Shown: positions 45,964 to 61,808 of the stretch, piece by piece
Numbering within the stretch: the stretch's first letter is position 1
How the letters are laid out: each line of letters starts with the position of its first letter
From: Actinomycetota bacterium
GTDB taxonomy: Bacteria; Actinomycetota; Actinomycetes; Mycobacteriales; Mycobacteriaceae
DNA length: 64,000 nt
Direction: 5' to 3'
Assembly (NCBI GenBank): GCA_018268465.1
Contig: JAFDWN010000030.1
Coordinates: forward strand, 1-64,000
The notes under the pieces: generated by a model
Told to the model about the DNA's origin: nothing
Databases searched by the model: none
What the model saw: only the letters and a program-made list of their open reading frames with translations
Position numbers and translations under genes: made by a program

Positions 45964-48742
<2,779 letters not shown>

Positions 48743-48890
48743 TTACTCTACCCGTCTCGGCACCGCTGACCTGCTCAGACCGCAGCCGGATGCGCCGCAC
48801 AGCCCGCGGCCGAGGCGGTTTTCCCGATCGCGAGGAGACCTGTGACCTTCGGTACTATCTCAGCGACACCCACCTACCGAGACGAGAACA

Positions 48891-50072
48891 ATGACGCAGC
48901 GTTACGACCTGGTCATCGCGGGCGGGGGACCTTCGGGCTCCGCGGCGGCGTGGCAGGCGGCTCAGACCGGCGCACGAGTGGTCGTTCTGGACAAAGCGGA
49001 GTTTCCGCGCGACAAACCCTGCGGGGACGGCCTGACCGCCCGCGCCGTGAGCTATCTGCAGAAGATGGGGCTGGCCGACGAGGTCGCCAAGTTCCACCGG
49101 GTCAACCGCGTGACGGTATTCAGCCCCAGCCAGTGGGAGCTGTCGTTCCCCAAACGCCCCGGCATGCCCGACCACGGTCACACGGTCAGCCGCACCGAAC
49201 TGGACACCCTGCTGCTCAAGCACGCGGAGTCGGCCGGCGCCGAGGTGCGGCAGTCCAGTGAGGTGGCCGGCCCCGAACTCGACGCGAGCGGCCGGGTCGT
49301 CGGCGTGGTGCTCAAGAGCGGTGAGAAGGTCTACGGCGATGCCGTCATCGCCGCCGACGGCGCCTACTCCCCCATCAAGCGGGCGCTGAAGATCGATTCG
49401 GAGTACAACGGCTATTCGGCCATCGCGATCCGGTCGGAGATGCACGCCAACCGGCCCGACTCCGACAGCCTCGACATCTACCTCAAGCTGCAGTTCCAGG
49501 GCGATCAGCTGCCCGGATACGGCTGGGTGTTCCCGATGGGCAACGGTGTGTTCAACATCGGCCTCGGCTACGTCAACAGTTACAAGAATTGGCAGTCGAT
49601 CAACGCCACCCAGTTCCTCGGCGAATTCCTGCGCACGCTGCCGCCCGAGTGGGAGCTGCCGGCCATCGAGGAACTGAAGAAGAACAAGAGCGTGCGGGCA
49701 TGGCGCCTACCGATGGGTTTCACGGCGTGGCCGCCGTGGCGGCCCGGCGTGCTGTTCACCGGCGACTCGCTGGGCGCCGGTAAGCCGGCGTCGGGGGCAG
49801 GGATCTCCAAGGCGCTGGAGTCCGGCCTGGCCGCCGGTGAGTGCGCCATCGCCGCGCTGCAGAACGGCGGCCCGGACGATTTCACCAACTACGCGCAGCG
49901 TATGGAGGCCGCGTGGGGCCGGGAGTACCGCCGCGGCCGGTACTTCCATAAGCTCGCGGGCATCCCGGCGGTGTCGAACACGGGTATCAAACTCATCGAC
50001 AACGCCCGCTTCCGCGACGTGCTGCTCAAATCGCTGTACAAGAAGGCGCAGGGCCCACAGCACAGTTACTAA
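48891..50072 (+). CDS. Geranylgeranyl reductase family FAD oxidoreductase (MenJ-like)
   Basis: A 393-aa flavoprotein of the geranylgeranyl reductase family. FAD is bound by DLVIAGGGPSGSAAAWQAA and by FTGDSLGAGKPASGAGISKALESG. The characteristic DKAEFPRDKPCGDGLTARAV and PGYGWVFPMGNGVFNIGLGY motifs are present. In mycobacteria MenJ (Rv0561c) reduces one double bond of the menaquinone side chain; this may be MenJ or a paralogue acting on another polyprenyl chain. It is divergent from the TetR gene (152-nt gap). ATG 48891. Confidence 0.92.
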   Translation: MTQRYDLVIAGGGPSGSAAAWQAAQTGARVVVLDKAEFPRDKPCGDGLTARAVSYLQKMGLADEVAKFHRVNRVTVFSPSQWELSFPKRPGMPDHGHTVSRTELDTLLLKHAESAGAEVRQSSEVAGPELDASGRVVGVVLKSGEKVYGDAVIAADGAYSPIKRALKIDSEYNGYSAIAIRSEMHANRPDSDSLDIYLKLQFQGDQLPGYGWVFPMGNGVFNIGLGYVNSYKNWQSINATQFLGEFLRTLPPEWELPAIEELKKNKSVRAWRLPMGFTAWPPWRPGVLFTGDSLGAGKPASGAGISKALESGLAAGECAIAALQNGGPDDFTNYAQRMEAAWGREYRRGRYFHKLAGIPAVSNTGIKLIDNARFRDVLLKSLYKKAQGPQHSY

Positions 50073-50277
50073 CCCCGGCAGCGCGAATGCCGTTATGGCA
50101 CTTCGGCTTTCGCAACGTCGCCGGCCAGTCGCCGCAGTAGTGCGCGCGTCCGGTCCGGCATGGCGTGCTGCGGCGAGACCATCGCTCCGGCACCGGTGCG
50201 GCCCGGGCGGATCCACCGTCGTCCTGGCACTGAACCATCGGCCGGGCCGCCTCACGGGCACCTGATCCCACAGACGC

Positions 50278-50326
50278 GTCCGCGGCGGGGCCAACCGACC
50301 GAAGTCGACTCGCCACCGCCGCGGAC
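50278..50326 (-). terminator. Long inverted repeat 3' of actP
   Basis: Perfect 11-bp arms (50278-50288 and 50316-50326, GTCCGCGGCGG and its reverse complement) are separated by 27 nt, starting 14 nt after the actP stop. It lies in the 268-nt convergent gap 50073-50340, which has no gene, and could terminate transcription from both sides. Confidence 0.5.
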
Positions 50327-50340
50327 CGGGCGACGCTGCC

Positions 50341-51939
50341 CTAGTGATCGAGCGCTTTGCCCTCGGCTCCGGCGCCGGTCAGCGACCGGACCTCCATCTC
50401 CGCGGCCTTGTACTCCAGGTGCTCCTTGCTGGTCATCGTCCCCAGGAAGCCGAGCAGGAACGACGCCGGGATGGACACCAGGCCGGGGTTGGCCAGCGGG
50501 AACCAGGCGAAGTCCAGGCTCGGGAACATCGCGGTCTTCGAACCCGACACCGCCGGCGAGAACGCGATCAGCAAGACCGTGATGGTCAGGCCGCCGTAGA
50601 TGCTCCACAGGCAGCCGCGGGTGTTGAACCGCTTCCAGAACAGCGAGTACAGGATCGTGGGCAGGTTCGCCGACGCCGCCACCGCGAACGCCAGTGCCAC
50701 CAGGAACGCGATGTTCTGCCCGTTGGCCGCGATCCCACCGAGGATGGCGATCACACCGACCACCACCGCCGAGATCCTGGCGACCTTGACCTCCGATCCC
50801 GCGGGAGCGTTGCCCTTGTGGATCACGCTGGAGTAGATGTCATGCGCGAACGACGCCGAGGCGGTGATCGTCAGGCCTGCGACCACGGCGAGGATCGTCG
50901 CGAACGCGATGGCCGCGATGAGGCCGAGCAGGACAGTCCCGCCGAGGTGGTAGGCCAGCAGCGGGGCGGCCGAGTTGGCGGCGCCCGGTGCCGCGGCGAT
51001 GCGCTCCGGCCCGACCAGCGCCGCGGCGCCATACCCGAGAACGAGCGTGAACAGGTAGAACAGGCCGATCAGCCAGATCGCCCAGACCACCGACTTACGC
51101 GCCTCCTTGGCGGTGGGCACGGTGTAGAACCGCATGAGGATGTGCGGCAGACCTGCGGTGCCGAGCACCAGCGCCAGCCCCAGCGAGATGAAGTCGATCT
51201 TGGTCAGGTTGCTCAGGCCGTACTTCACACCCGGTTCCAGCGAGGCACCCTTCTCGGCTCCGGCGCCCAGCAGGGAGGACAGGTTCATACCGAACTTCGT
51301 CAGCACCCATGCGGCCATCACCAGGGTGCCGCCGATCAGTAGGACCGCCTTGATGATCTGCACGTAGGTGGTGCCCTTCATGCCGCCGATCAGCACGTAG
51401 GTGATCATCAGCGCGCCGACGGCCACGATCACCAGGCTCTGGCCGGTGCGGTCGGTGATGTTCATCAGCAGCGCGACCAGACCGCCGGCGCCGGCCATCT
51501 GCGCGAGCAGGTAGAAGAACGACACGACCAGTGTGGACGTCGCGGCGGCGGTGCGCACCGGCCGTTCGCGCATCCGGAAGGACAGCACGTCGGCCATCGT
51601 GAAGCGGCCGGTGTTGCGCAGCAGTTCGGCGACCAGCAGCAGCGCGACGACCCAGGCGACGAGGAAGCCGACGCTGTAGAGGAAGCCGTCGTAGCCGGTC
51701 AGCGCGATGGCGCCGGTGATACCCAGGAACGACGCCGCCGACAGGTAGTCACCGGAGATCGCGATGCCGTTCTGGCGGCCGGTGAATGCCGCACCCGCGG
51801 TGTACATATCCGACGCGCTCTTGTTGGTGCGACTCGCGCGGATCACGAAGACCAGCGTGATGGCCACGAAACCGAGGAAGATCGCCAGGTTCAGAGCGGT
51901 GTTGCCGACGGTTTCGGCGGCGAGGACGGTGACGTTCAC
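50341..51939 (-). CDS. actP: Cation/acetate symporter ActP (SSS/SLC5 family)
   Basis: A 532-aa sodium:solute symporter with about 13 helices. Acetate-permease type motifs are present: GDYLSAASFLGITGAIAL, GGMKGTTYVQIIKAVLL, LGTAGLPHILMRFYTVPTAKEARKS and VAGLTITASASFAHDIY. The symporter should take up acetate or short-chain monocarboxylates. It starts at GTG 51939 in a GTGA overlap with the DUF485 gene, the usual YjcH-ActP arrangement. A sensor module for such compounds lies immediately upstream on the same strand. Confidence 0.95.
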   Translation of the reverse strand: MNVTVLAAETVGNTALNLAIFLGFVAITLVFVIRASRTNKSASDMYTAGAAFTGRQNGIAISGDYLSAASFLGITGAIALTGYDGFLYSVGFLVAWVVALLLVAELLRNTGRFTMADVLSFRMRERPVRTAAATSTLVVSFFYLLAQMAGAGGLVALLMNITDRTGQSLVIVAVGALMITYVLIGGMKGTTYVQIIKAVLLIGGTLVMAAWVLTKFGMNLSSLLGAGAEKGASLEPGVKYGLSNLTKIDFISLGLALVLGTAGLPHILMRFYTVPTAKEARKSVVWAIWLIGLFYLFTLVLGYGAAALVGPERIAAAPGAANSAAPLLAYHLGGTVLLGLIAAIAFATILAVVAGLTITASASFAHDIYSSVIHKGNAPAGSEVKVARISAVVVGVIAILGGIAANGQNIAFLVALAFAVAASANLPTILYSLFWKRFNTRGCLWSIYGGLTITVLLIAFSPAVSGSKTAMFPSLDFAWFPLANPGLVSIPASFLLGFLGTMTSKEHLEYKAAEMEVRSLTGAGAEGKALDH

Positions 51940-52304
51940 AGCAGACCCTCCGCTTCCATCTCTTCACGAATGCGCGCCGAACGCGGGTCGAGGGTCTTGT
52001 CGGCGTAGCGCACGTAGGCCGAGGTGATGCCGAACGTGGTGACGAACTGCAGCAGGCCGAGCACCAGACCGACGTTGATGTTGCCGACGACCGGCTGGCT
52101 CATGAACCCGGGTGCGTACGCGGCGAGTAGCACGTAGAGCAGGTACCACAAGAGGGCGGCCACGGTGACCGGGATGACCCAGCGCCGGTAGCGCCGGCGC
52201 AGATCCTGGAACTCAGGGGACTTCAGCACCGCGAGGTACTTCGCCTCGACGGGTGTCGGCGGCGGCAGTTCGTCGCCAAGATTCTGGTGGTGCGCTCTGC
52301 TCAC
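51936..52304 (-). CDS. DUF485 (YjcH-like) membrane protein, ActP partner
   Basis: A 122-aa protein with two predicted helices (WVIPVTVAALLWYLLYVLLAAY; VGLVLGLLQFVTTFGITSAYV). DUF485 proteins are encoded next to ActP in many bacteria and are thought to be accessory to the symporter. The soluble N-terminus carries the LKSPEFQDLRRRYRRWVIP pattern. It starts at GTG 52304 behind GGAGGA. The 215-nt region upstream (52305-52519) holds two DnaA-box-like 9-mers and no gene. Confidence 0.92.
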   Translation of the reverse strand: MSRAHHQNLGDELPPPTPVEAKYLAVLKSPEFQDLRRRYRRWVIPVTVAALLWYLLYVLLAAYAPGFMSQPVVGNINVGLVLGLLQFVTTFGITSAYVRYADKTLDPRSARIREEMEAEGLL

Positions 52305-52343
52305 GGGGTTTCCTCCCTGGTTGCCCGAGCATGGATGGGGTGG

Positions 52344-52414
52344 TGTGGATAACTGCCAGTGCATGAAAGTGACGGACATCTCCATCTGCCGAGGAACTTA
52401 CAACCTGTGGATAC
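52344..52414. promoter_or_regulatory. Two DnaA-box-like 9-mers upstream of the acetate uptake operon
   Basis: On the minus strand TTATCCACA (52344-52352, a perfect DnaA box) and GTATCCACA (52406-52414, one mismatch) lie 62 bp apart in the same orientation. They fall 40-110 nt upstream of the DUF485 gene. Confidence 0.5.
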
Positions 52415-52519
52415 GCTGCCAACGGCCATTGGTTGAGGTGTGCGGTGAGCGGAAGTTTGGCGCGACGAACGTTCGCAGCGCTGCGCTGAACGGGGGCCCG
52501 GGGCGGCCCGGCGGCAGCG

Positions 52520-54685
52520 TCAGGAGCCGTAGAACGAGGTGTCCAGCCTGGCTTGCAGGGTGGCGCGGGAGGCGGCGACCGCCTCGGCAAGTGTTCGCAC
52601 GCCGCGGGCACGCAGCAGCGCCACCAGCCGGATGAAGATCTCACCGGTGACCAGCGCGTCACCGAGTGCGGTGTGGCGGCCGAGGATGTCCACGCCGAGC
52701 CGCCCGGCGATCGCCTCCAGCGAATGCTCGTCGTGGTCGGGATGCACCGCGGCGTCCAGCAGCAGGGTGTCCAGCACCACCGGGCGGGCGGCGGGCATGC
52801 CGACGCGGGCCCGCTCCACCCCCAGGAACTGCATGTCGAAGCCGACGTTGTGGCCGACGAGCACCGTGTCGGCGGCGAAACGGTCGAAGGTGGGCAGGAC
52901 GGTGTCGATGGTCGGCTGCCCCCGCACCATCGCCGTGGTCAGCCCGTGGAACGCCGTACTACTGGAGGGCACCGCCCGTTGCGGATCGACCAGCCGCTCG
53001 TAGGTGTCGCCGTGCAGCATCCGTCCGTTGACGATGCGCACCGCGCCGATGGAGATGATGCGGTCACCGTGCTGGGGGTCCAGGCCGGTGGTCTCCGTGT
53101 CGAAGACGGTGTAGGAGAGTTCGGCGAGGTCGCGATCCGACCAGGAGTCGTCGTCGGTCTGGCCGCCCGAGTGACGCTCGAACAGCCCGAAGTCGTAGAA
53201 CTCGGGCCGGCTCGCGACGTCGACACGCGTGCGGGCACCCGACCCCCCGGCCGGTGCGCCCACCGGCACCGCGACCGGGAACAGCAGCCGTAGGCGGCCA
53301 CCGACAGCACGCGCGGGTGCACCGGCGCCGGTGACGGATTCGCACCAGATCTCTCCGCCGTGCCGCGCCACGACGTCGCGCGCACTGGGCGATCCGCCGA
53401 CCAGCGGTTCGTCCAGCCATGACTGCGACGACGCCGGCGCGCGACCCGACCAGGTCAGTTCGATCTGCGCGTGGCCGCCGACGCGGCGTGCGCTCAGGAC
53501 GAGCATCGCGACCCCGGCGTCTTCGCGGAGGCGGTCGGTCAGCTGGGCGAGCGCACGTGTCACGCTGTGGCTGTCCACCTTGACCCAGAGCGGTTCGGCG
53601 ACGTCGCGCCGTGACACGGCCAGGCCGACGTCGCGTTCGAGAGTGCGCGCCACCACGGCGAGCAGATCGTCGATGCTGATGTCGGTGCTGGGCCAGTCCG
53701 CCCCGAATCCGCCGTCGGACTCGCCGACCCATTCCTGCACCCGCTGCCCCAGCCTGGCGCATTCCTCCCGGACGATCCAGAGGAACTCCTGGCGGTCGAC
53801 GGCGTCCATGTCGGGGTAGCCCAGGACGTTCTCGATGGCGGCCTGGATGCTGCCCAGCGAGGCGCGGGTGCCCTCGGTGACGTCGCGCACCAGTTCCTCG
53901 CGGCGGGCGCTGCGGCCCACCCGGTCGGTCATATCCTCCAGCAGCAGCACGTATCCGGTGACGGTGTCGCCGGGCCCGCGGGCCGGAGCCACCTGCACCT
54001 GCAGCAGCTGATCACCCCGCAGGGTGGTGGACACGTGGGGAAATCCGCCACCGTCGCCGGCGCGGTCGTGCAGCCGCTCCATCGCGTGGGTGAGCAGGTC
54101 GCGGTCGACGATCCCGAACACCGAACGACCCAGACCCACCACCGCGTCGTCGCCGAGCACCGATTTCGCGGCGGCGTTGTACAGCAGAATTCGGCCCTCG
54201 TCGTTGCACACCAGCACGGCCGCCGCGAGTTCGGCCATCAGCGCGGCGAGGCGGTTGCGCTCCTCTTCGACGGTCGCCCGCGCGGCGGCGATCTGTTCGT
54301 CGACGGCGCGTTCGGCGGTCCGGCGCCGCCGGGCCAGCTCCGCGACCGCCGAGGCCAGTCCGGCGATGTCGGCGGGCCCGGACGGCTCGACGGTGTGGTC
54401 GGGGTTGGCGTCGACGACCAGGCGGGTGTCCGCGGCCAGCCGGCGCACCGCCGAGATGTAGCGGCCGGAAAGGTGGGCGACGAGCGCCACCAGACCGGCG
54501 AGTGCCAGTGCGCCACCGATCGCCAGCACCGCGGCCTGCCCGGCGATCACCCCGTGCAGGACGGCACGCCGGTCGGCCGGCAGGCCGGTGTAGAGCAGTG
54601 TCGTCAGCGCGACGAGCGCCAGCACGACGTATCCGGCGACGGCGGCGGCGAGCGACCACCGCGCGTCGGGCCGTCTGCCGGTCAT
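52520..54685 (-). CDS. Membrane PAS/pseudo-histidine kinase fused to a DnaQ-type DEDDh exonuclease
   Basis: A 721-aa fusion. TM helices are at about 12-32 and 48-70, then a HAMP-like stretch, a PAS domain (about 145-255; VLVCNDEGRILLYNAAAKSVLG), and a kinase-like region where the expected H-box has T-R-A-S (273-276) and no histidine, followed by a degraded ATPase (SARDVVARHGGEIWCES) lacking N and G boxes. The C-terminus (525-690) is a full DEDDh nuclease: Asp529/Glu531 (VFDTETTGL), Asp617 (HNVGFDMQF), His671 and Asp676 (HTALGDA). It follows the response regulator gene by 54 nt. DnaQ-type nucleases near SLC5-linked kinases occur in proteobacteria; the fusion is notable. Confidence 0.88.
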   Translation of the reverse strand: MTGRRPDARWSLAAAVAGYVVLALVALTTLLYTGLPADRRAVLHGVIAGQAAVLAIGGALALAGLVALVAHLSGRYISAVRRLAADTRLVVDANPDHTVEPSGPADIAGLASAVAELARRRRTAERAVDEQIAAARATVEEERNRLAALMAELAAAVLVCNDEGRILLYNAAAKSVLGDDAVVGLGRSVFGIVDRDLLTHAMERLHDRAGDGGGFPHVSTTLRGDQLLQVQVAPARGPGDTVTGYVLLLEDMTDRVGRSARREELVRDVTEGTRASLGSIQAAIENVLGYPDMDAVDRQEFLWIVREECARLGQRVQEWVGESDGGFGADWPSTDISIDDLLAVVARTLERDVGLAVSRRDVAEPLWVKVDSHSVTRALAQLTDRLREDAGVAMLVLSARRVGGHAQIELTWSGRAPASSQSWLDEPLVGGSPSARDVVARHGGEIWCESVTGAGAPARAVGGRLRLLFPVAVPVGAPAGGSGARTRVDVASRPEFYDFGLFERHSGGQTDDDSWSDRDLAELSYTVFDTETTGLDPQHGDRIISIGAVRIVNGRMLHGDTYERLVDPQRAVPSSSTAFHGLTTAMVRGQPTIDTVLPTFDRFAADTVLVGHNVGFDMQFLGVERARVGMPAARPVVLDTLLLDAAVHPDHDEHSLEAIAGRLGVDILGRHTALGDALVTGEIFIRLVALLRARGVRTLAEAVAASRATLQARLDTSFYGS

Positions 54686-54739
54686 CTCGGCGCGCCCCGT
54701 CGCACGCGACGTGGTTCGCCCTGGCGCGCGCCGGTCATG

Positions 54740-55111
54740 TCAGGTGCCGCTCGCCAACAGCCGGGTGACCGTCTCGACCAGCTCCGAGGTCGAAAACGGC
54801 TTCGTCACATAGGCATCGGCCCCCAGGGACAGACCCTTGGCCATCTCGGCCTCGCGCCCCTTGGCCGTCAGCAGGATGATCTTGAGGTCGGTCCACCCGG
54901 AGGCGCGCAGCTCCTGACAGACTTCGAAGCCGTCCCGCCGCGGCATCATCACGTCGAGCAGCACCAGATCCGGCCGGAACTGCGTCACGGCTTCGATCGC
55001 CTCGTCGCCGTCGCGCGCCACGCTGGTCTCGAACCCGGCCTTGCGCATGAGGAACTGCAGCGAGATGACGATATTCGGCTCGTCATCGACGATCAGTACC
55101 TTCGCAGGCAT
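54740..55111 (-). CDS. Receiver-only response regulator
   Basis: A 123-aa CheY-like protein with no output domain. Acidic residues Asp9/Asp10, phospho-acceptor Asp53 in [15 protein letters not shown], Thr in LLTAKG and Lys in YVTKPFS are all present. It starts at ATG 55111, sharing one base with the kinase stop (TGATG), so it is translationally coupled to the kinase. Output must be through another protein; the pseudo-kinase/exonuclease downstream is a possible partner. CrbS-type systems in proteobacteria usually use a LuxR-type regulator instead. Confidence 0.93.
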
Positions 55112-57900
55112 CAGCTGGCTCCTCCTTGAGCGCGTGCGGTCGCGACGGGCAGGGTGAACGAGAAGACCGCACCCTGGCCGGGCGAACTGCGCACCCACAG
55201 CTCGCCGCCGAGACGGTCCACGATCTCACGGCTGATCGGCAGTCCGAGCCCGGTTCCGGAAGGACGGTTGATGCGGGTGTCGCCGCCCTGGCGGAATTTC
55301 TCGAAGATCACGGCGTGATCCTCCGCGTCGATACCGGGCCCGTTGTCCGCGACGTCGACCCGGGCGAGCCGGCCGTCGGCCCTGCTGTGGGCAACGCCGG
55401 CCCCTGCCCCGTCGTCGGCCACGCCGATGGTGACCTGGACGTGGCCGCTGTCCGGTGGGCAGAACTTCACCGCGTTCGAGAGCAGGTTGAGCATGACTTG
55501 CACCAACCTGTCACGGTCGGCCCGCACCGTGGGCGCAGGTTCGGGGACATCGACGTCGAGCGCCACCCCGCGGTCCCGGAACAGCTGCGCGGTGGCATGC
55601 ACGGAGGACGCCACGACCTCACCGAGGTCGATCGGCTCGATATGCCATTCTGCGGCGCCGGATTCCAGCTTCGACAGGTCGAGCACCTGGTTGATCAGGC
55701 GCGTCAGCCGCTCGGTTTCGGCGACGATGATCTGCAGGTACTCCGAGCGCTCCGCCACGTCGAGATCGGGGTTGTCGGAGAGGATCTCGGAGAAGGCGCG
55801 GATCGACGTCAACGGTGTGCGCAGTTCGTGCGAGACCGTCGAGACGAATTCGTCCTTGAGCCGGTCGAGTTCCTGCAGCCGGTCGTTGGCCTCCCGCAGT
55901 TCGGTGGTGGCCTGCTGCAGCTGCGCCGACTTGCGTTCCAGCGCACGGCTGTACGCCAGCACCTCGGAGGTCTCGTCGAGGATCTGCAGGACCTCGTCGA
56001 CGGCCAGCGGCTCCTCGTCGACGACGGAGGCCACGACGAAACGGGCCGACGCCGATCCCACCGCACCGGCCAGCAGCGATTCCACGTGGCGGACCAGGTC
56101 GGCGCCCGCGGCGGCGCCCGAGGAGATGTCGGTGCCCGTGGGGCCTGCGAACGCCACCAGGGCCGCGTGGGCGCCCACGGGGCCGAGGAAACGTGCGAGC
56201 AGCACTTCGAGTTGGCCCACCGTCGCCGATCCGCGCCACAGCCGGGCTTCGGTGTCGCTGCCCACCTTGCTGAACCCGTCGGTGAACATCGACGCCTGAA
56301 CGTGTTCGGCGGTGTCGCGCCGTCCGGTCAGCGACAGCCCGACGAACAGACCCACGTTGACCAACATGCTCCACAGCATGGAATGGCTGACTTCGTCGAG
56401 TCCGTCCAGGCCGAACAGCGCGTACGGGGCGAGGAACTGCATCCCGAACGGTCCGTTGTCGACGAACGACGACGGCAGCAGACCGGCCTGGGCCAGCGAC
56501 GGCAGCGGCAGTGTGTACGCCCAGACCACGAACCCGGCGATCAGCCCCCAGGTGGCGCCGCGACGGGTGCCGCCCTGCCAGTACAGCCCGCCCAGGACCG
56601 CCGGCGCGAACTGTGCGACGGCGGCGAACGAGATCAGACCGATCGACACCAGCTCCAGCGAATCGCCCGCCACCCGGAAGTACAGGTAGCCGAGCAGCAG
56701 CAACACCACGATCGTCACGCGGCGGATGCGCAGGATCCGCCGGCCCAGGTCGCTGTCTTCGGCCAGCGCACCTCCCCGCCGCAGCAGCACCGGCACCACC
56801 AGCGAGTTGGACACCATGGTCGACAAGGCGATGGTCTCGACGATCACCATGCCGGTGGCGGCGGACAACCCGCCGACGAACACCAGCAGCGTCAGCGCGG
56901 CCTGCTGGTCGGCCATCGGCAGCGCCAGCACGAACGCGTCCGGGCTGATGCCGCCCGTGCCGAAGGTGATCAGCCCGGCGATCGCGATGGGCAGCACGAA
57001 GACGTTGATGAGCAGCAGGTACGTCGGGAACACCCACGTCGCGGTCCTGATGTGGCGTTCGTCGACGTTCTCGACGACGGCCACCTGCCACTGCCGGGGT
57101 AGCAGCAGGATCGCCAGCATCGACAACACGATGAGCCACAGCCATTCCCCGTAGCCCTGGATGTCGCCGAATGCCAGCAGCTTTGAGAGGCCCGGGTCGG
57201 CCTGGGCGCGGCCGAACAGGTCGCCGAATCCGGTGAACATCGCGTAGGTGACGTAGAAGCCGACGGCCAGGAACGCGACCAGTTTCACGACGGATTCGAA
57301 GGCCACCGCCGCGACCATGCCCTCGTGGCGTTCGGTGGCGTCGAGGTGGCGCGCCCCGAACACGATGGTGAACGCGGCGAGCAGCAGCGCGACGTACAGC
57401 GCGGTGTCGGTGAACAGCGGCGGGTCCGCAGCGGTGAGGGTCGCCATCTCGGGGTCGCCGCGCAGGATGGTGAACGAGTTGGAGATGGCCTTGAGCTGCA
57501 ACGCGATGTAGGGGACGATCCCGACGACGGCGACCACCGTCACCAATCCGCCCAGCAGCGCGCTCTTGCCGTAGCGCGCGGACACGAAGTCGGCGAGTGA
57601 GGTGATCCGGTTCTGTTTGCAGATCCGCACGATCTTGCGCAGCACCATCCACCACGCCGCCGCCATCACCGTGGCGCCGAGGTAGATCGGCAGGAAGCCG
57701 ACGCCGGCGGTGGCCGCCCGCCCGACGCTGCCGTAGTAGGTCCAGGAGGTCGCGTACACACCCAGGGACAGTGCGTAGATGTAGCCGTTGGAGATGATGC
57801 TGCGCCCGCGGTCGGCTCTGCGGTCACCGAAATGGGCGATGGCGAACAGCACGCCGAGGTAGGCCAGGGATACGCCGACGATGATCCAGACGTCGATCAT
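55111..57900 (-). CDS. SLC5 (SSS) transporter fused to sensor histidine kinase
   Basis: A 929-aa hybrid sensor like CbrA/CrbS. Residues 1-525 form a 13-helix sodium:solute symporter unit ([37 protein letters not shown]). A STAC-like linker (540-625) and coiled region follow. The HisKA His691 lies in [13 protein letters not shown], and the ATPase has N-box [11 protein letters not shown]1 [11 protein letters not shown] and G2 [10 protein letters not shown]. In proteobacteria CrbS detects acetate and related acids via the SLC5 unit. ATG 57900 lies in an ATGA overlap with a small membrane gene. Confidence 0.95.
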
Positions 57901-58088
57901 CGGGACCGGGTTATCCAGGCGAGCAGGGCGATGACGAGGATCCAGGCGCCGAACAGGTATGCCCACAGCACCGGGATGCCGCCGATCAGCGTGCCGGTGT
58001 CGAAGACGGCCAGCAGCGGGAAGTTGAACAGGACCAGCGCGAGCAGGCCGACCGCCACCAGGCGGGCTGTCCGCATCCGGTCTCTCAC
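57897..58088 (-). CDS. Small two-helix membrane protein next to the SLC5-kinase
   Basis: A 63-aa protein with two helices (ARLVAVGLLALVLFNFPLLAVF; PVLWAYLFGAWILVIALLAWI) and a basic end. It is coupled to the SLC5-kinase by ATGA and lies 13 nt from the DUF294 gene. Small helical proteins are common partners of SLC5 transporters (compare DUF485 and DUF3311), so a role in folding or sensing of the kinase's transporter unit is plausible. It starts at GTG 58088; ATG 58076 is possible. Confidence 0.8.
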   Translation of the reverse strand: MRDRMRTARLVAVGLLALVLFNFPLLAVFDTGTLIGGIPVLWAYLFGAWILVIALLAWITRSR

Positions 58089-58101
58089 GCAGCCACCCCT
58101 G

Positions 58102-59148
58102 TCACGTCACCGCGTGGGTTGCGAACCGCAGCGCGGTGGCGTCCTGGATCTCGCGGATGAGGCGCAGCGCCGCTTGGAGTTCGGCCCGGCGTCCCGGTGG
58201 GAGGCGGTCGAGCGGCACCCGGTTGTCCAGCGGCAGGTCCTCGTCGGCTTGTTCGAGTTGATGGCGCAACCGCAGGTCGGTGAGCAGGGCGTAGGCGTCG
58301 ATCAGGTCGGAGGCGTTCGCCGCGTTCAGTGTCCCGGCGGCCGCGGCGGCGCGCAGCCGCGGCACGGTGCTGTGCTCGGTGGCGCCCGCGACGAGCGCGT
58401 AGAGCCGGGCGAGCAGCACGATCGCCGCGGTGCCGCCCCGCTTCACGTCCAGTGTCGAGCCGCGGGCACGCAACCGGCCGAACCAGCCGAGCGGCGGCCG
58501 GAACGTCAGCGCGGCCCGCGCCATCTGGGCGCGGAAGGGACCTCTGCTGCCGCCCGCGAGCAGGATGCGCTCGAGTGTGTCGGGTGCCAGTTCGCCGTGG
58601 CAGAGGTGGACGTCGAGGAACACCTCGGCCTTGAGCAGCGCGTCGGGTTGGGGGCTTTCCACCCAACTGCGGAAAAGCCTGGCGTATTCGTCGATCGGCC
58701 TGCGCCAGTTCGTCGCCATGTAGCCGCCGTCGCACAGCGGGATGCCGGCGCGTTCCAGCGCGGTGACGATGATCTCGGCGAGCGCGCCGAAGTACGTTTC
58801 GGCGTCGCGCTGCGCGCCGGGTTCTTCGCATTCGAAGGCGATCGCACTGTCCTGATCGCTGGACAGGACCTGCTCGCGGCGCCCGTGCGACCCCAACGCC
58901 AGCCAGGCATACCGGCACGGCGGCGGGCCGAGGTGCGCTTCGGCGAGTGTCAGCAGTCGCCGGGTCAGCGCGTCGTTGGCATCTCCGATGGCGCCGCTGA
59001 TCGCCAGTGCGTCCTCGCCTCCGGCCAGTCCGGCGCGGGTGAGTTCGACGATCTGGCGGGGATAGTCGTCGAGCGGGTCGAGCCGGTCCAGTGCGGTGAT
59101 CTCGGCGATGGCCGACACCTGCGCGGCGTCGTGGGCCGGGGTCTCCAT
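58102..59148 (-). CDS. DUF294-type putative nucleotidyltransferase
   Basis: A 348-aa protein of the GlnD-like pol-beta superfamily. The nucleotidyltransferase motif is GSHGRREQVLSSDQDSAI: Gly86-Ser87 and the metal-binding Asp98/Asp100. The C-terminal DUF294 region ends with LTDLRLRHQLEQADEDLP, typical of the substrate-binding part. The usual N-terminal CBS and cyclic nucleotide-binding domains of the roughly 600-aa proteobacterial forms are missing. The association with SLC5 symporters, DnaQ-type nucleases and CrbS-like kinases is conserved beyond actinobacteria. Target of nucleotidylation unknown. Confidence 0.88.
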   Translation of the reverse strand: METPAHDAAQVSAIAEITALDRLDPLDDYPRQIVELTRAGLAGGEDALAISGAIGDANDALTRRLLTLAEAHLGPPPCRYAWLALGSHGRREQVLSSDQDSAIAFECEEPGAQRDAETYFGALAEIIVTALERAGIPLCDGGYMATNWRRPIDEYARLFRSWVESPQPDALLKAEVFLDVHLCHGELAPDTLERILLAGGSRGPFRAQMARAALTFRPPLGWFGRLRARGSTLDVKRGGTAAIVLLARLYALVAGATEHSTVPRLRAAAAAGTLNAANASDLIDAYALLTDLRLRHQLEQADEDLPLDNRVPLDRLPPGRRAELQAALRLIREIQDATALRFATHAVT

Positions 59149-59191
59149 CGCCTCACCTCAGCCCTCTTCGGCCATCGTGTGCCGCTCGCCG

Positions 59192-59212
59192 CGCGCCGGC
59201 CGGGCCGGCGCG
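59192..59212. repeat. Near-perfect GC palindrome between the first two cluster genes
   Basis: CGCGCCGGCC and GGCCGGCGCG around one G (10-bp arms). It separates the 158-aa gene from DUF294 and may attenuate transcription or be an operator. Confidence 0.35.
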
Positions 59213-59258
59213 TCAATTTTGTCGGGGGCTCAACCCTACGTCGTCGTCGCAGCGGTGG

Positions 59259-59735
59259 TCATGTGGACAGACCGGCGAGGACCAGCGGAATCGACTCCGG
59301 CCCGGTCCTGGCGACGTAGTGTCCGGAGCGGAGCAGGAACCGCGCGACGCGCGCCTGCTCGGGCGGCATCTCCGGGAGTTCGTTCACCGCCGCGCGCAGC
59401 GCACCCTCGATGTCGCGGTCGACGAGTTGTTCGTCGATGCGCCGGCCGCCGCGCCGCTCCACGAGTCCGATACCGGCCCCGATCTGGGCGGCCGACGTCA
59501 GCAGCTGCCGGAGGTACGGCTCGTCGTCGGGTGCCACGTCGATTCGTACGAGTGCCAGCACCTCGCCGACGATCAGGTCGGCGACGTCGTGCGCGCGCGG
59601 CTCGAACGCCTCGCGGTACCCCATCTCGTAGATCGTCTGCACCGCGAAGGAGTAGAGGGTGTCGGTCGGCGCGTGGTCGTCGAGTGCCGGCACGGGCAGC
59701 GGCAGCAGTCGTGGTTTTCGGGAGAAGAGAGGCAC
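59259..59735 (-). CDS. Conserved hypothetical protein (158 aa) at the head of the sensor cluster
   Basis: No recognised family. The protein begins with a proline/basic segment (VPLFSRKPRLLPLPVPALDD) and continues as an all-helical acidic domain (YSFAVQTIYEMGYREAFEP; PYLRQLLTSAAQIGAGIGL; DIEGALRAAVNELPEMPPEQ). It has no signal peptide and no cysteines that suggest metal binding. It starts at GTG 59735 behind GAGGAG. It is probably co-regulated with the DUF294/SLC5-kinase cluster, 110 nt upstream of it, though a hairpin lies between. Confidence 0.75.
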   Translation of the reverse strand: MPLFSRKPRLLPLPVPALDDHAPTDTLYSFAVQTIYEMGYREAFEPRAHDVADLIVGEVLALVRIDVAPDDEPYLRQLLTSAAQIGAGIGLVERRGGRRIDEQLVDRDIEGALRAAVNELPEMPPEQARVARFLLRSGHYVARTGPESIPLVLAGLST

Positions 59736-59861
59736 TGGCGGACTCCTCGTCGGCTCATGTCGGGTCCCAGCGTAGGACTGCCGGGGCGGGGTGGGCACCG
59801 GCCGGGCGGGCAGGTGCCGACGGGCCTTTGTTGTCGGGCCGTTGTTGTCGGAGCGCGCGCG

Positions 59862-59867
59862 TAGCGT
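59862..59867 (+). promoter_or_regulatory. -10 hexamer TAGCGT for the VOC gene
   Basis: Ends 7 nt before ATG 59875; no ribosome-binding site. Confidence 0.45.
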
Positions 59868-59874
59868 TCCGGCC

Positions 59875-60291
59875 ATGGAGCAACGGATCAGCCTGATCAC
59901 CCTTGGCGTCGACGATCTCGGCCGGGCCCGGCACTTCTACGAGCAGGGTCTGGGTTGGGCGCCCAGGGACGCACCCGGCGGAGTCGCGTTCTACCAACTC
60001 CCCGGCATTGCGTTCGCCTTGTGGGGCCGTGACGACATGGCCCAGGATGCCCGACATTCGCTCGACGGGCGGTTCAGCGGGATCACGATCGCGGTGAACC
60101 AGCGCAGCGAAGCCGACGTCGACGCGGTGCTCGCCCAGGCGCAGGCCGCGGGCGCAACCGTCCTCAAACCGGCCCAGCGCACCGAATGGGGTGGGTACTC
60201 CGGCTATTTCGCCGACCTCGACGGCCATGTGTGGGAGGTCGCGCACAATCCGTTCTGGACGATCAACGACGACGGCACGCTGACCATCTGA
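59875..60291 (+). CDS. VOC family protein (glyoxalase/bleomycin resistance fold)
   Basis: A 138-aa protein of two beta-alpha-beta-beta-beta units: ISLITLGVDDLGRARHFYEQGLGW and later GGYSGYFADLDGHVWEVAHNPFW, the classic VOC C-terminal strand with the metal-ligand position Glu in VWEVAHNP. The metal-ligand His expected in strand 1 is replaced (L-I-T-L-G), so metal dependence is doubtful. Function and substrate unknown. Divergent from the 158-aa gene. Confidence 0.9.
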   Translation: MEQRISLITLGVDDLGRARHFYEQGLGWAPRDAPGGVAFYQLPGIAFALWGRDDMAQDARHSLDGRFSGITIAVNQRSEADVDAVLAQAQAAGATVLKPAQRTEWGGYSGYFADLDGHVWEVAHNPFWTINDDGTLTI

Positions 60292-60699
60292 AGGGTGAGC
60301 GGGGTGTAGCGGCGAACCCACATCGCCGACGGAAACCCGCACGGATCCCCACACTCGGCACCGACCGACTCCGGTTCCGGCTCGGCTCAGTTCGGTGTGC
60401 GTCACCGTCACAGATCGTGGGGAGTGGGTTGCGGCGGCTCTCGGGAAAGCGGCGATCGCGTGCTGTTCGGGCCGTGAAAAGGCGAGTACCGCATTACTCA
60501 TCTGCGCGCCGCGGCGGCGTGATTTGATCGGCAATGTAGGTCTCGGCCGATGCGCCAATCCTCGACCGAGGCTTGGCGATGGGGAGGTCGCTATGAAGGT
60601 TGAGTGGCTGCGGACCTATCCCGCCGGAATCGCCGAAGCCTCGGTCCACCGACGCGTTGGGTGACAGTCGGGGTGACAAGTGACGCGGTGAGGGAAGCC
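60292..60699. other. 408-nt region without a convincing gene
   Basis: No frame here has conserved-looking sequence or a good start. It holds the first copy of the direct repeat (60344-60380) and, at its right end, the GAGGGAAG ribosome-binding site for the membrane protein at 60700. Composition is slightly less GC-rich than the core genes. Confidence 0.6.
60344..60380. repeat. Imperfect direct repeat, copy 1
   Basis: About 35 bases resemble 61711-61747, with the mismatches mostly C/T transitions. Shared core: ATNCCCACANTCGGNANCG, then ACCGACTNCGGTTCC. The two copies flank the membrane-protein gene. Confidence 0.55.
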
Positions 60700-61680
60700 A
60701 TGGCGATTGACGTCGGACAGCGTCCCGCCTTCGACGGTGAGCCGATCCCCGATCCGTGCAAGCCGCAGCCGGTTCTGTCAGCCACGTTGATCGTGATTGC
60801 GGCGGCCTCAGCGGCTGCCGCCCTGGCCACCGTAGGGGTGAGTCAGCCCGACCAGGCTGTGCAGTACAGCAGGCTCCCCGAATACGGCATCTGGGCAACC
60901 TTGATGATCGGACTCGTGGGCGTCAGTGTCGCCGGGGGAATCTACTCCTGGCCGACGTGGCGGGAACTTCATGGACGGTCATCGCAACGGGAGCGGCTGG
61001 TTTCCTACGTGCTCGCTTTCTTCATCGTGCTCGTCTACGACGCATCCCCAGAGCTCGTCGGCCGCGCATATCTTCAGCGGTCATCTCCTCCGATTCCGTA
61101 CGAGGTGCCACGGGAGATCGGGTTCATTCTGTTGATCGGGTTTGCAGCTCTGCCAGCGGCGGGTGCCTTGGTTCTGGCCGGTCTTCAGCTCAGCCGAAGG
61201 ACGCGCCCGTGGAACGTGGCGGGTGGTGTCATCATCGCTGAGCTCTTGCGGATCCGTGTGCAGTTGCAGCGTCTCCTGACAGTGCTGGCCTTAGTGATCG
61301 GCGGCAACGTTCTGACCATTGGAGCTATGCGGAACGCGGTGACGGCGTACGAAGCCACGCAGCACGAAGTCCGGCAACTTCAGTCGATTCCGGACGAGCT
61401 TCTGCTTGTTTACGGAATGTCGATGACCGGGCTGCTGGCCCTTGTTTACATCCCTACGTACCTGGCCTGGCAGACCAGAGCCGCCGAACAATGCGATCGA
61501 CTGTATCCCCTGCCTCCGGACGGGCGGGCAGGCCACGACTGGTACATCGGGCGTTCGGACCTCGAAGGTTTGCTCGGCCTGAAAGCTAGTGTCGGCGTGG
61601 TGTTTACCACTGGGCTGGGCTTGATCGCTCCATTCGCGAGTAGCCTTGTCAGCGCGATCCTCAATAGTTCCGCGTCCTGA
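60700..61680 (+). CDS. Hypothetical multi-pass membrane protein (326 aa)
   Basis: Not a recognised family. There are probably five or six helices: LSATLIVIAAASAAAALATVG, IWATLMIGLVGVSVAGGIYSW, LAFFIVLVYDASPE, IGFILLIGFAALPAAGALVLA, LLTVLALVIGGNVLTIGAM and a C-terminal VVFTTGLGLIAPFASSLVSAI. A cytoplasmic loop contains LRIRVQLQRLL. GC content is visibly lower and codon use less extreme than in neighbours, suggesting acquisition. ATG 60700 has GAGGGAAG upstream. It is flanked by an imperfect direct repeat. Confidence 0.7.
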   Translation: MAIDVGQRPAFDGEPIPDPCKPQPVLSATLIVIAAASAAAALATVGVSQPDQAVQYSRLPEYGIWATLMIGLVGVSVAGGIYSWPTWRELHGRSSQRERLVSYVLAFFIVLVYDASPELVGRAYLQRSSPPIPYEVPREIGFILLIGFAALPAAGALVLAGLQLSRRTRPWNVAGGVIIAELLRIRVQLQRLLTVLALVIGGNVLTIGAMRNAVTAYEATQHEVRQLQSIPDELLLVYGMSMTGLLALVYIPTYLAWQTRAAEQCDRLYPLPPDGRAGHDWYIGRSDLEGLLGLKASVGVVFTTGLGLIAPFASSLVSAILNSSAS

Positions 61681-61710
61681 ATGCTGTGCAGGCACGCTAA
61701 AACTCCTACC

Positions 61711-61747
61711 GATTCCCACATTCGGTATCGACCGACTTCGGTTCCCG
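61711..61747. repeat. Imperfect direct repeat, copy 2
   Basis: Second copy of the 60344-60380 repeat, starting 30 nt after the membrane-protein gene ends. It contains ACCGACTTCGGT-type partial dyad symmetry, like intergenic REP elements. Confidence 0.55.
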
Positions 61748-61808
61748 CCAAGGCCATTTGGTCCGACCGAAACTGCCCGCGCCACGGGGAGACCTGCACG
61801 TCATGATG

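Follow-up and report, generated by a model that had tools for sequence, protein, structure and literature searches.

Most two-component systems described so far act through transcription factors or signalling enzymes. Among the known systems close to the locus reported here are CrbS/CrbR (MxtR/ErdR) and RpuS/RpuR, which share with it, in the passages that describe them, a symporter-like kinase, genes for acetate or pyruvate transporters and DUF485 (PMC5715377; PMC9100948). Their regulators drive transcription, whereas the regulator found here has no DNA-binding domain. The STAC domain is a feature of the CrbS-type kinase family, and the present likeness rests on other features.

In Pseudomonas putida, the RNase_T gene pp_0353 lies in an operon with the CBS-domain gene pp_0354, and the promoter is bound by ErdR (PMC9927547). 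According to the passages on these genes, deletion of pp_0353 delays growth on pyruvate but not on acetate, and a pp_0354 mutant has no pyruvate defect; the authors speculate on mRNA decay and call the presence of the nuclease in the operon unclear (PMC9927547). The P. aeruginosa homolog of pp_0353 adjoins actP and yjcH, as stated in the same passages (PMC9927547). Moreover, excerpts on P. aeruginosa report that PA3232-PA3235 are ~16-fold up during growth on propionate and that PA3233-PA3235 fell 2-fold after propionate addition (PMC9765439). Our locus resembles that of pp_0353 by context only, namely an RNase_T gene tied to a symporter-kinase two-component system, with the CBS-domain gene and, in P. 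aeruginosa, actP and yjcH as the neighbours at the Pseudomonas loci. It differs in two respects: the passages on pp_0353 mention no fusion to a sensor, whereas the nuclease studied here is fused to a PAS domain and a pseudokinase, and ErdR binds promoters, whereas the regulator here is a receiver alone (PMC9927547).

Another described protein that bears on this locus is DivL of Caulobacter, which has no catalytic His, binds ATP weakly and uses the usual docking face to bind DivK~P. As reported in the sections on these interactions, the substitution R553A (at position +3 from the His) weakens DivK~P binding, and neither kinase nor phosphatase activity was detected for DivL (PMC4211667).

In the open-licence literature searched, the parts of our locus are known singly and their combination was not found. 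No paper turned up there that combines a PAS domain, a DEDDh exonuclease and a histidine kinase, or DUF294 and an exonuclease, and the STAC domain and an exonuclease co-occur only in one paper, a CASP report. Judging by title and the start of the abstract, the four open-licence matches listed for a pseudokinase with an exonuclease, and the 10 of 36 listed for a response-regulator output domain with a nuclease, included nothing of this kind.

The window, i.e. the whole stretch of 64,000 nucleotides analysed here, contains a module of genes on the reverse strand for DUF294, a kinase, a receiver, an exonuclease, DUF485 and a monocarboxylate transporter. The exonuclease is part of a 721-aa protein with an ATG start (52520..54685). 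Next to it, a receiver-only response regulator (54740..55111) has Response_reg as its sole family over the cut-off and no residues after the receiver, and hence no output domain for DNA binding. It is adjoined by a histidine kinase (55111..57966) whose N-terminal half resembles solute symporters (SSF at 21.8 bits, just below the Pfam cut-off of 22.8) and whose H, N and G boxes are intact. A DUF294 nucleotidyltransferase (58102..59148) carries a GSxxRxE...SxDxD motif, with no CBS domain found; a 213-aa ORF without a Pfam family match (59259..59900) heads the cluster, its membership being uncertain. On the other side lie a DUF485 protein (51936..52385) and a monocarboxylate symporter (50341..51939) that matches the MctC model NF058657 at 862 bits against a cut-off of 670 and is ActP-like. 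The locus thus has the symporter-kinase, its SSF match being just short of the cut-off, and the acetate/monocarboxylate transporter genes by which CrbS/R-like acetate modules are recognised.

The 721-aa protein begins with a probable membrane hairpin, two hydrophobic stretches with a short loop between them (approximately residues 8-75; 54461..54664), suggested by hydropathy and by helices in a weak structure model. It is followed by a PAS domain (residues 145-256; 53918..54253), for which Pfam gave PAS at 145-252 (1.7e-6) and PAS_4 at 153-256 (9.5e-7). Then come a pseudo-histidine-kinase core with a DHp and ATPase fold (residues 257-476; 53258..53917), identified by profile, alignment and structure matches, an RPEFYDF linker motif seen in the alignment (residues 493-499; 53189..53209) and a DEDDh exonuclease domain of the RNase_T family (residues 527-684; 52634..53107). 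We see about an even chance that this protein is a membrane-anchored, regulated 3'-5' exonuclease, which would be the output of a monocarboxylate-sensing two-component module and would be gated by the receiver acting on a DivL-like pseudokinase.

The first-pass annotation had described a membrane PAS sensor, a dead kinase and a DEDDh exonuclease in one frame, and the ORF, hydropathy, Pfam matches and residue alignment give the same architecture. A separate start giving a stand-alone DnaQ, named beforehand as an observation that would speak against the fusion, was looked for by a start-codon scan and is not supported: no internal ATG, GTG or TTG start lies at residues 476-530, and residues 456-530 contain just two GTG codons (473 and 475), neither of which has, by eye, a Shine-Dalgarno-like stretch upstream. 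It should be noted that the ATG of the whole frame is likewise without a clear Shine-Dalgarno. Moreover, the fusion is not an artefact of assembly or frame, since it recurs in actinobacterial, alpha- and gammaproteobacterial genomes. The frame is confirmed as a real fusion of PAS, pseudokinase and DEDDh.

The nuclease domain matches RNase_T with an E-value of 4.6e-36 (125.3 bits against a Pfam cut-off of 24). Its catalytic residues D529, E531, D617, H671 and D676 are all present, in agreement with the earlier claim, and the five are kept in 25/27 aligned family members, the other two being the degenerate paralogs L154 and L156. Judged by its fold and these residues, the domain looks fully working and is a putative 3'-5' exonuclease. 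The arginine of the RPEFYDF motif is kept together with the exonuclease residues in 25/27 members, and the motif was not found by alignment in the DUF294-fused forms or in L153.

The domain and its catalytic residues are the same as in the DEDDh exonucleases DnaQ, PolC and PRK07883; the nearest solved structures by sequence are the PolC and DnaQ exonucleases, and among the 25 NCBIfam matches listed only the general model TIGR00573 exceeds its cut-off. Such resemblance could mean that a DnaQ-type DNA repair or proofreading nuclease was joined to a sensor by chance, and PA3232 is indeed listed as DNA polymerase III, down under levofloxacin, in the portion of a report that names it (PMC9816134). 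We regard this as very improbable. In a tree of 93 rows, the module exonucleases, 44 rows including one duplicate, cluster together and separately from the remaining DEDDh rows (moderate support, 85/83), and in several classes their neighbours are genes of metabolism and signalling. From their lengths, the other DEDDh rows of the tree read as DnaQ-like or PRK07883-like.

For the 721-aa protein, Pfam listed neither HisKA nor HATPase_c at E<=1, and no family lies between PAS and the nuclease. However, when 26 family cores were compared, profile against profile, with 20 rows of kinase cores taken from these loci, the E-value was 3.5e-22 over 209 columns. The 20 rows correspond to 19 distinct kinases (L006 and L161 being one place); a symporter-like part is present in 17 and missing from two, both of Paracoccus. 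At E<=0.01, Pfam found HisKA in 7/26 and HATPase_c in 1/26 family cores, the window's core having neither, and the profile of family cores matched 26 PDB sequences at E<=0.01, by name histidine kinases or sensor proteins, DivL included. Structure prediction of the kinase region, suggested as a check in the first-pass annotation, also supports a kinase-like fold. A five-sequence model matched WalK, HK853, DivL and other kinases in Foldseek; it is a low-confidence model, with a pLDDT of ~63-85 across much of the ATPase portion, apart from a dip, and it backs the kinase-like fold alone because the DEDDh part was not modelled and the overall pLDDT is 54.9. A single-sequence model (pLDDT 42.8) was unusable.

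In the window's core, Glu271 replaces the phosphoacceptor His, with Gly at +1 and Ala at +4, Trp412 replaces the G1 Asp, and the second N-box Asn is gone, while Arg274 is kept. These changes and the alignment of the 26 cores bear out the earlier description of an H-box without histidine and an ATPase without N and G boxes. Across the 26 cores, the phosphoacceptor position is occupied by Glu in 18, Arg in 3, and Ser, Thr, Asp, Asn and Val in 1 each, and by His in none (0/26); the second N-box Asn and a Thr at +4 are each found in 0/26. The ATP-binding Asp of G1 is Trp in 26/26, and the G2 stretch is shortened or missing. As for the E/D-x-x-T/N phosphatase motif, only L154 and L156 have E-x-x-N (Glu at +1, Asn at +4). 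By comparison, the phosphoacceptor His, the second N-box Asn and the G1 Asp are all kept in 20/20 of the compared kinase-core rows. The arginine at His +3 is kept in 26/26 of the pseudokinase cores. The family cores therefore lack the set of features that marks an active histidine kinase (phosphoacceptor His, phosphatase motif, and N, G1 and G2 boxes) and are pseudo-histidine kinases, in which the kinase fold is retained and the catalytic residues are gone.

Like DivL, which is found by both structure and profile searches, the protein is a PAS-bearing pseudo-histidine kinase; to our knowledge, DivL has no nuclease domain. The family further differs from DivL in its Trp in place of the ATP-binding Asp, and DivL acts on CckA. 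The positions of the DivL contacts at +7 and +12 (T557 and Y562, from the passages on this interface; PMC4211667) are not kept and are occupied by Gly/Ala and Ala, respectively.

Could the fusion be a degenerating, pseudogene-like product without function? Just one of 248 genomes of the window's genus carries it, its own, when the best 3-4 candidates per genome are scored, and the two gammaproteobacterial paralogs L154 and L156 have also lost the nuclease residues. Set against these points, the long open frame, the intact nuclease residues, and the Trp and Arg that are invariant in 26/26 pseudokinases across classes make this hardly credible. The paralogs themselves (L154 509-2734 and L156 8075-10243) combine the pseudokinase with a nuclease-like tail that has lost all five catalytic residues, and the DNA read around them contains none of this module's receiver, kinase or DUF294 genes.

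Relatives spanning PAS to an intact nuclease, with the best 3-4 candidates per genome scored, were found in 3/296 genomes of the same phylum (the window's own, G042 and G062), 7/240 genomes of the class to which Paracoccus belongs, counting Paracoccus itself, and 10/229 genomes of the gammaproteobacterial class of L038, where G849, G980 and G992 have two copies each. The symporter-like kinase was found in 1/118 genomes of the window's genus, its own, with the best 7 candidates per genome scored. Absences in these large searches are not proof, because only these first-look candidates were scored. Named matches are a Nocardioidaceae MAG, Paracoccus alkenifer, P. solventivorans and a gammaproteobacterial MAG without the kinase part. 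The full-length set comprised every search row spanning PAS to nuclease, L099 and L134 being cut by a contig end. Wide flanks were taken for 20 places besides Paracoccus and ten further loci had short flanks, stronger rows only being used. What goes beyond the first-pass annotation is thus a family spread across several classes, an acetate/monocarboxylate-like operon with DUF294 and, through the P. putida work, an RNase_T gene tied genetically to growth on pyruvate.

The exonuclease group has several architectures. Besides the TM-PAS-pseudokinase-DEDDh form, there are shorter frames that have no kinase part (L038, L142 and others, a PAS match being recognisable in several), an exonuclease alone (L153) and single frames with DUF294 (L155, L157, L159, L160 and L089). 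On the 93-row tree, the pseudokinase label needs five changes, the bootstrap not being settled and G062 being labelled pseudokinase there. In L138 (1-1743), a DUF294 frame precedes a stand-alone exonuclease of 237 aa (29% identity); this genome also has the fused form, ~6 kb away.

We compared the neighbours of loci with and without the pseudokinase, using wide flanks where present, some flanks being cut short by contig ends. The locus of G062 (L123), in which the phosphoacceptor helix is gone and a degenerate ATPase part kept, was counted as without pseudokinase and lies outside the 26 cores; L154 and L156, with their dead nuclease, are within the 26 cores and in neither adjacency group. At 17/24 loci with the pseudokinase versus 0/19 without it, a receiver-only gene of the same orientation lies no more than 400 bp away (Fisher 8.8e-7, a guide only, as such p values overstate independence when loci share descent); after removal of loci cut near a contig end, the counts are 17/21 versus 0/17. 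The counted receivers have no output domain, since only 0-22 residues follow the receiver match. Anywhere in the DNA read, a receiver gene was seen at 18/24 versus 2/19 loci, and the symporter-kinase at 15/24 versus 2/19, the Paracoccus loci, whose kinase has no symporter part, being outside these 15. The ActP-like transporter shows no difference (10/24 versus 8/19). The ten further short-flank loci, all without pseudokinase, have no adjacent receiver gene. Among uncut pseudokinase loci, 4/21 lack an adjacent receiver (L126, L131, L132 and L135), and in L126 a receiver gene lies 4.6 kb off on the opposite strand. The G062 protein groups with that of the window in the tree (97/82), yet it is without the phosphoacceptor helix; in this genome (one contig, 100% complete), no receiver gene was found in the 18 kb read around the locus, and the best match to the symporter-kinase spans the kinase core only. 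The first-pass annotation had suggested that the nuclease could be the output of the adjacent receiver-only regulator: the link between the two is backed by this adjacency and by the kinship of pseudokinase and kinase, and the interpretation as a whole is partly supported.

DUF294 follows another pattern and might point to a different role. The exonuclease might be an eraser for DUF294, which would add nucleotides to protein or RNA 3' ends that DEDDh removes, the pseudokinase being an extra layer of regulation in some lineages. We find this somewhat unlikely, although DUF294 occurs in the DNA read at 19/19 loci without the pseudokinase versus 11/24 with it, is adjacent or fused to the exonuclease in nine of the ten short-flank loci, and shares one frame with it in the five loci named above; moreover, in the sister rows L020 and L025 a stand-alone exonuclease stands between DUF294 and DUF485-ActP. 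However, no DUF294 was seen in the DNA read at 13/24 pseudokinase loci (some cut short), and pp_0354, which we take to be a DUF294 protein, was not the gene whose loss affected growth on pyruvate. In the passages on the P. putida mutants, that gene was the nuclease pp_0353 (PMC9927547). The single frames of DUF294 and exonuclease suggest a shared substrate or pathway.

With respect to the origin of the pseudokinase, the best non-self match of its profile in the whole genome is the adjacent intact kinase (E 5.6e-14; next 8.7e-8). Over the pairs of pseudokinase and partner kinase, similarity is 27.5% in the DHp part and 16.4% in the ATPase part, and own-pair similarity of the DHp (27.5%) is hardly higher than that of cross pairs (26.5%), so that recent gene conversion between kinase and pseudokinase was rejected. 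In none of the 17 pairs do pseudokinase and partner kinase agree at the receiver contacts +12 and +15, with Phe/Leu to Ala at +12 and hydrophobic to mixed at +15. These sequences fit an old duplication of such a kinase, with a docking surface partly kept (Arg +3) and partly changed.

Given that, among the kinases of the genome, the neighbouring one is closest to the pseudokinase, hetero-pairing or competition for the receiver is plausible. The pseudokinase could then have the partner kinase as its target, through a heterodimer or receiver competition, and the exonuclease would be separate cargo with a constant function. This appears quite unlikely: in 25/27 members the pseudokinase comes with intact exonuclease residues and the RPEFYDF arginine, and relatives without pseudokinase keep the exonuclease, the reverse being found only in the two degenerate paralogs.

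We therefore return to gating of the nuclease by the receiver. What argues for it are the uniform losses in the pseudokinase, the kept DEDDh residues, the receiver adjacency, the kinship with the kinase, the kept Arg +3 and the pyruvate link of pp_0353; it is weakened by the 4/21 loci without a receiver, the changed contacts and the phosphatase-type pair that L154 and L156 keep. Under this reading, the adjacent symporter-like kinase would phosphorylate the receiver-only protein, as the gene pair suggests, and the phosphorylated receiver would dock on the pseudokinase core as DivK~P does on DivL. The pseudokinase would offer its retained fold and docking arginine, with the phosphoacceptor, phosphatase-type and ATP-binding residues gone. 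Docking, together with the PAS domain, may change where the DEDDh domain sits, or how accessible it is, via the conserved RPEFYDF linker. The nuclease might then, speculatively, trim RNA 3' ends (mRNA or DUF294-added tails) and so tune acetate/pyruvate metabolism; RNA as the substrate is itself speculative, following the analogy that others proposed for pp_0353, and DNA is an alternative. We tentatively propose, as a whole chain, that the two-component signal ends in a nuclease: a receiver-only protein reads the acid-sensing kinase, docks on a dead relative of this same kinase and thereby switches a membrane-held exonuclease that trims RNA, perhaps DUF294 tails, giving post-transcriptional control of monocarboxylate use without a transcription factor.

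If true, a phospho-signal would lead directly to nucleic-acid decay through a conserved pseudokinase-nuclease encoded next to a lone receiver. It could account for the presence of nucleases in acetate/pyruvate operons, and some acid-sensing two-component systems may signal by nucleic-acid breakdown instead of gene switching. The loci with and without the pseudokinase provide a natural test set.

Finally, we examined how the module sits in its genome. Contamination of the contig was considered (the assembly being put at 5.86%) and rejected: the neighbourhood looks native, because the left flank (46599-50072), which is collinear in the relative G297, matches same-genus genomes at 84% across ~3.2 kb and at up to 90% across ~1 kb. 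In G297, the matches to window positions 50070 and 61808 lie 275 bp apart, so the module is in an inserted stretch of ~11.7 kb (50071..61807, no strand assigned) that is missing from the matching site. Five other relatives were compared at this site; in one of them, L174, the sequence read did not include the right flank, and in the other four the flank matches are separated by 2.5 to 12 kb of other DNA. A glyoxalase-like gene (59791-60291, forward strand) also lies within the 50071-61807 stretch.
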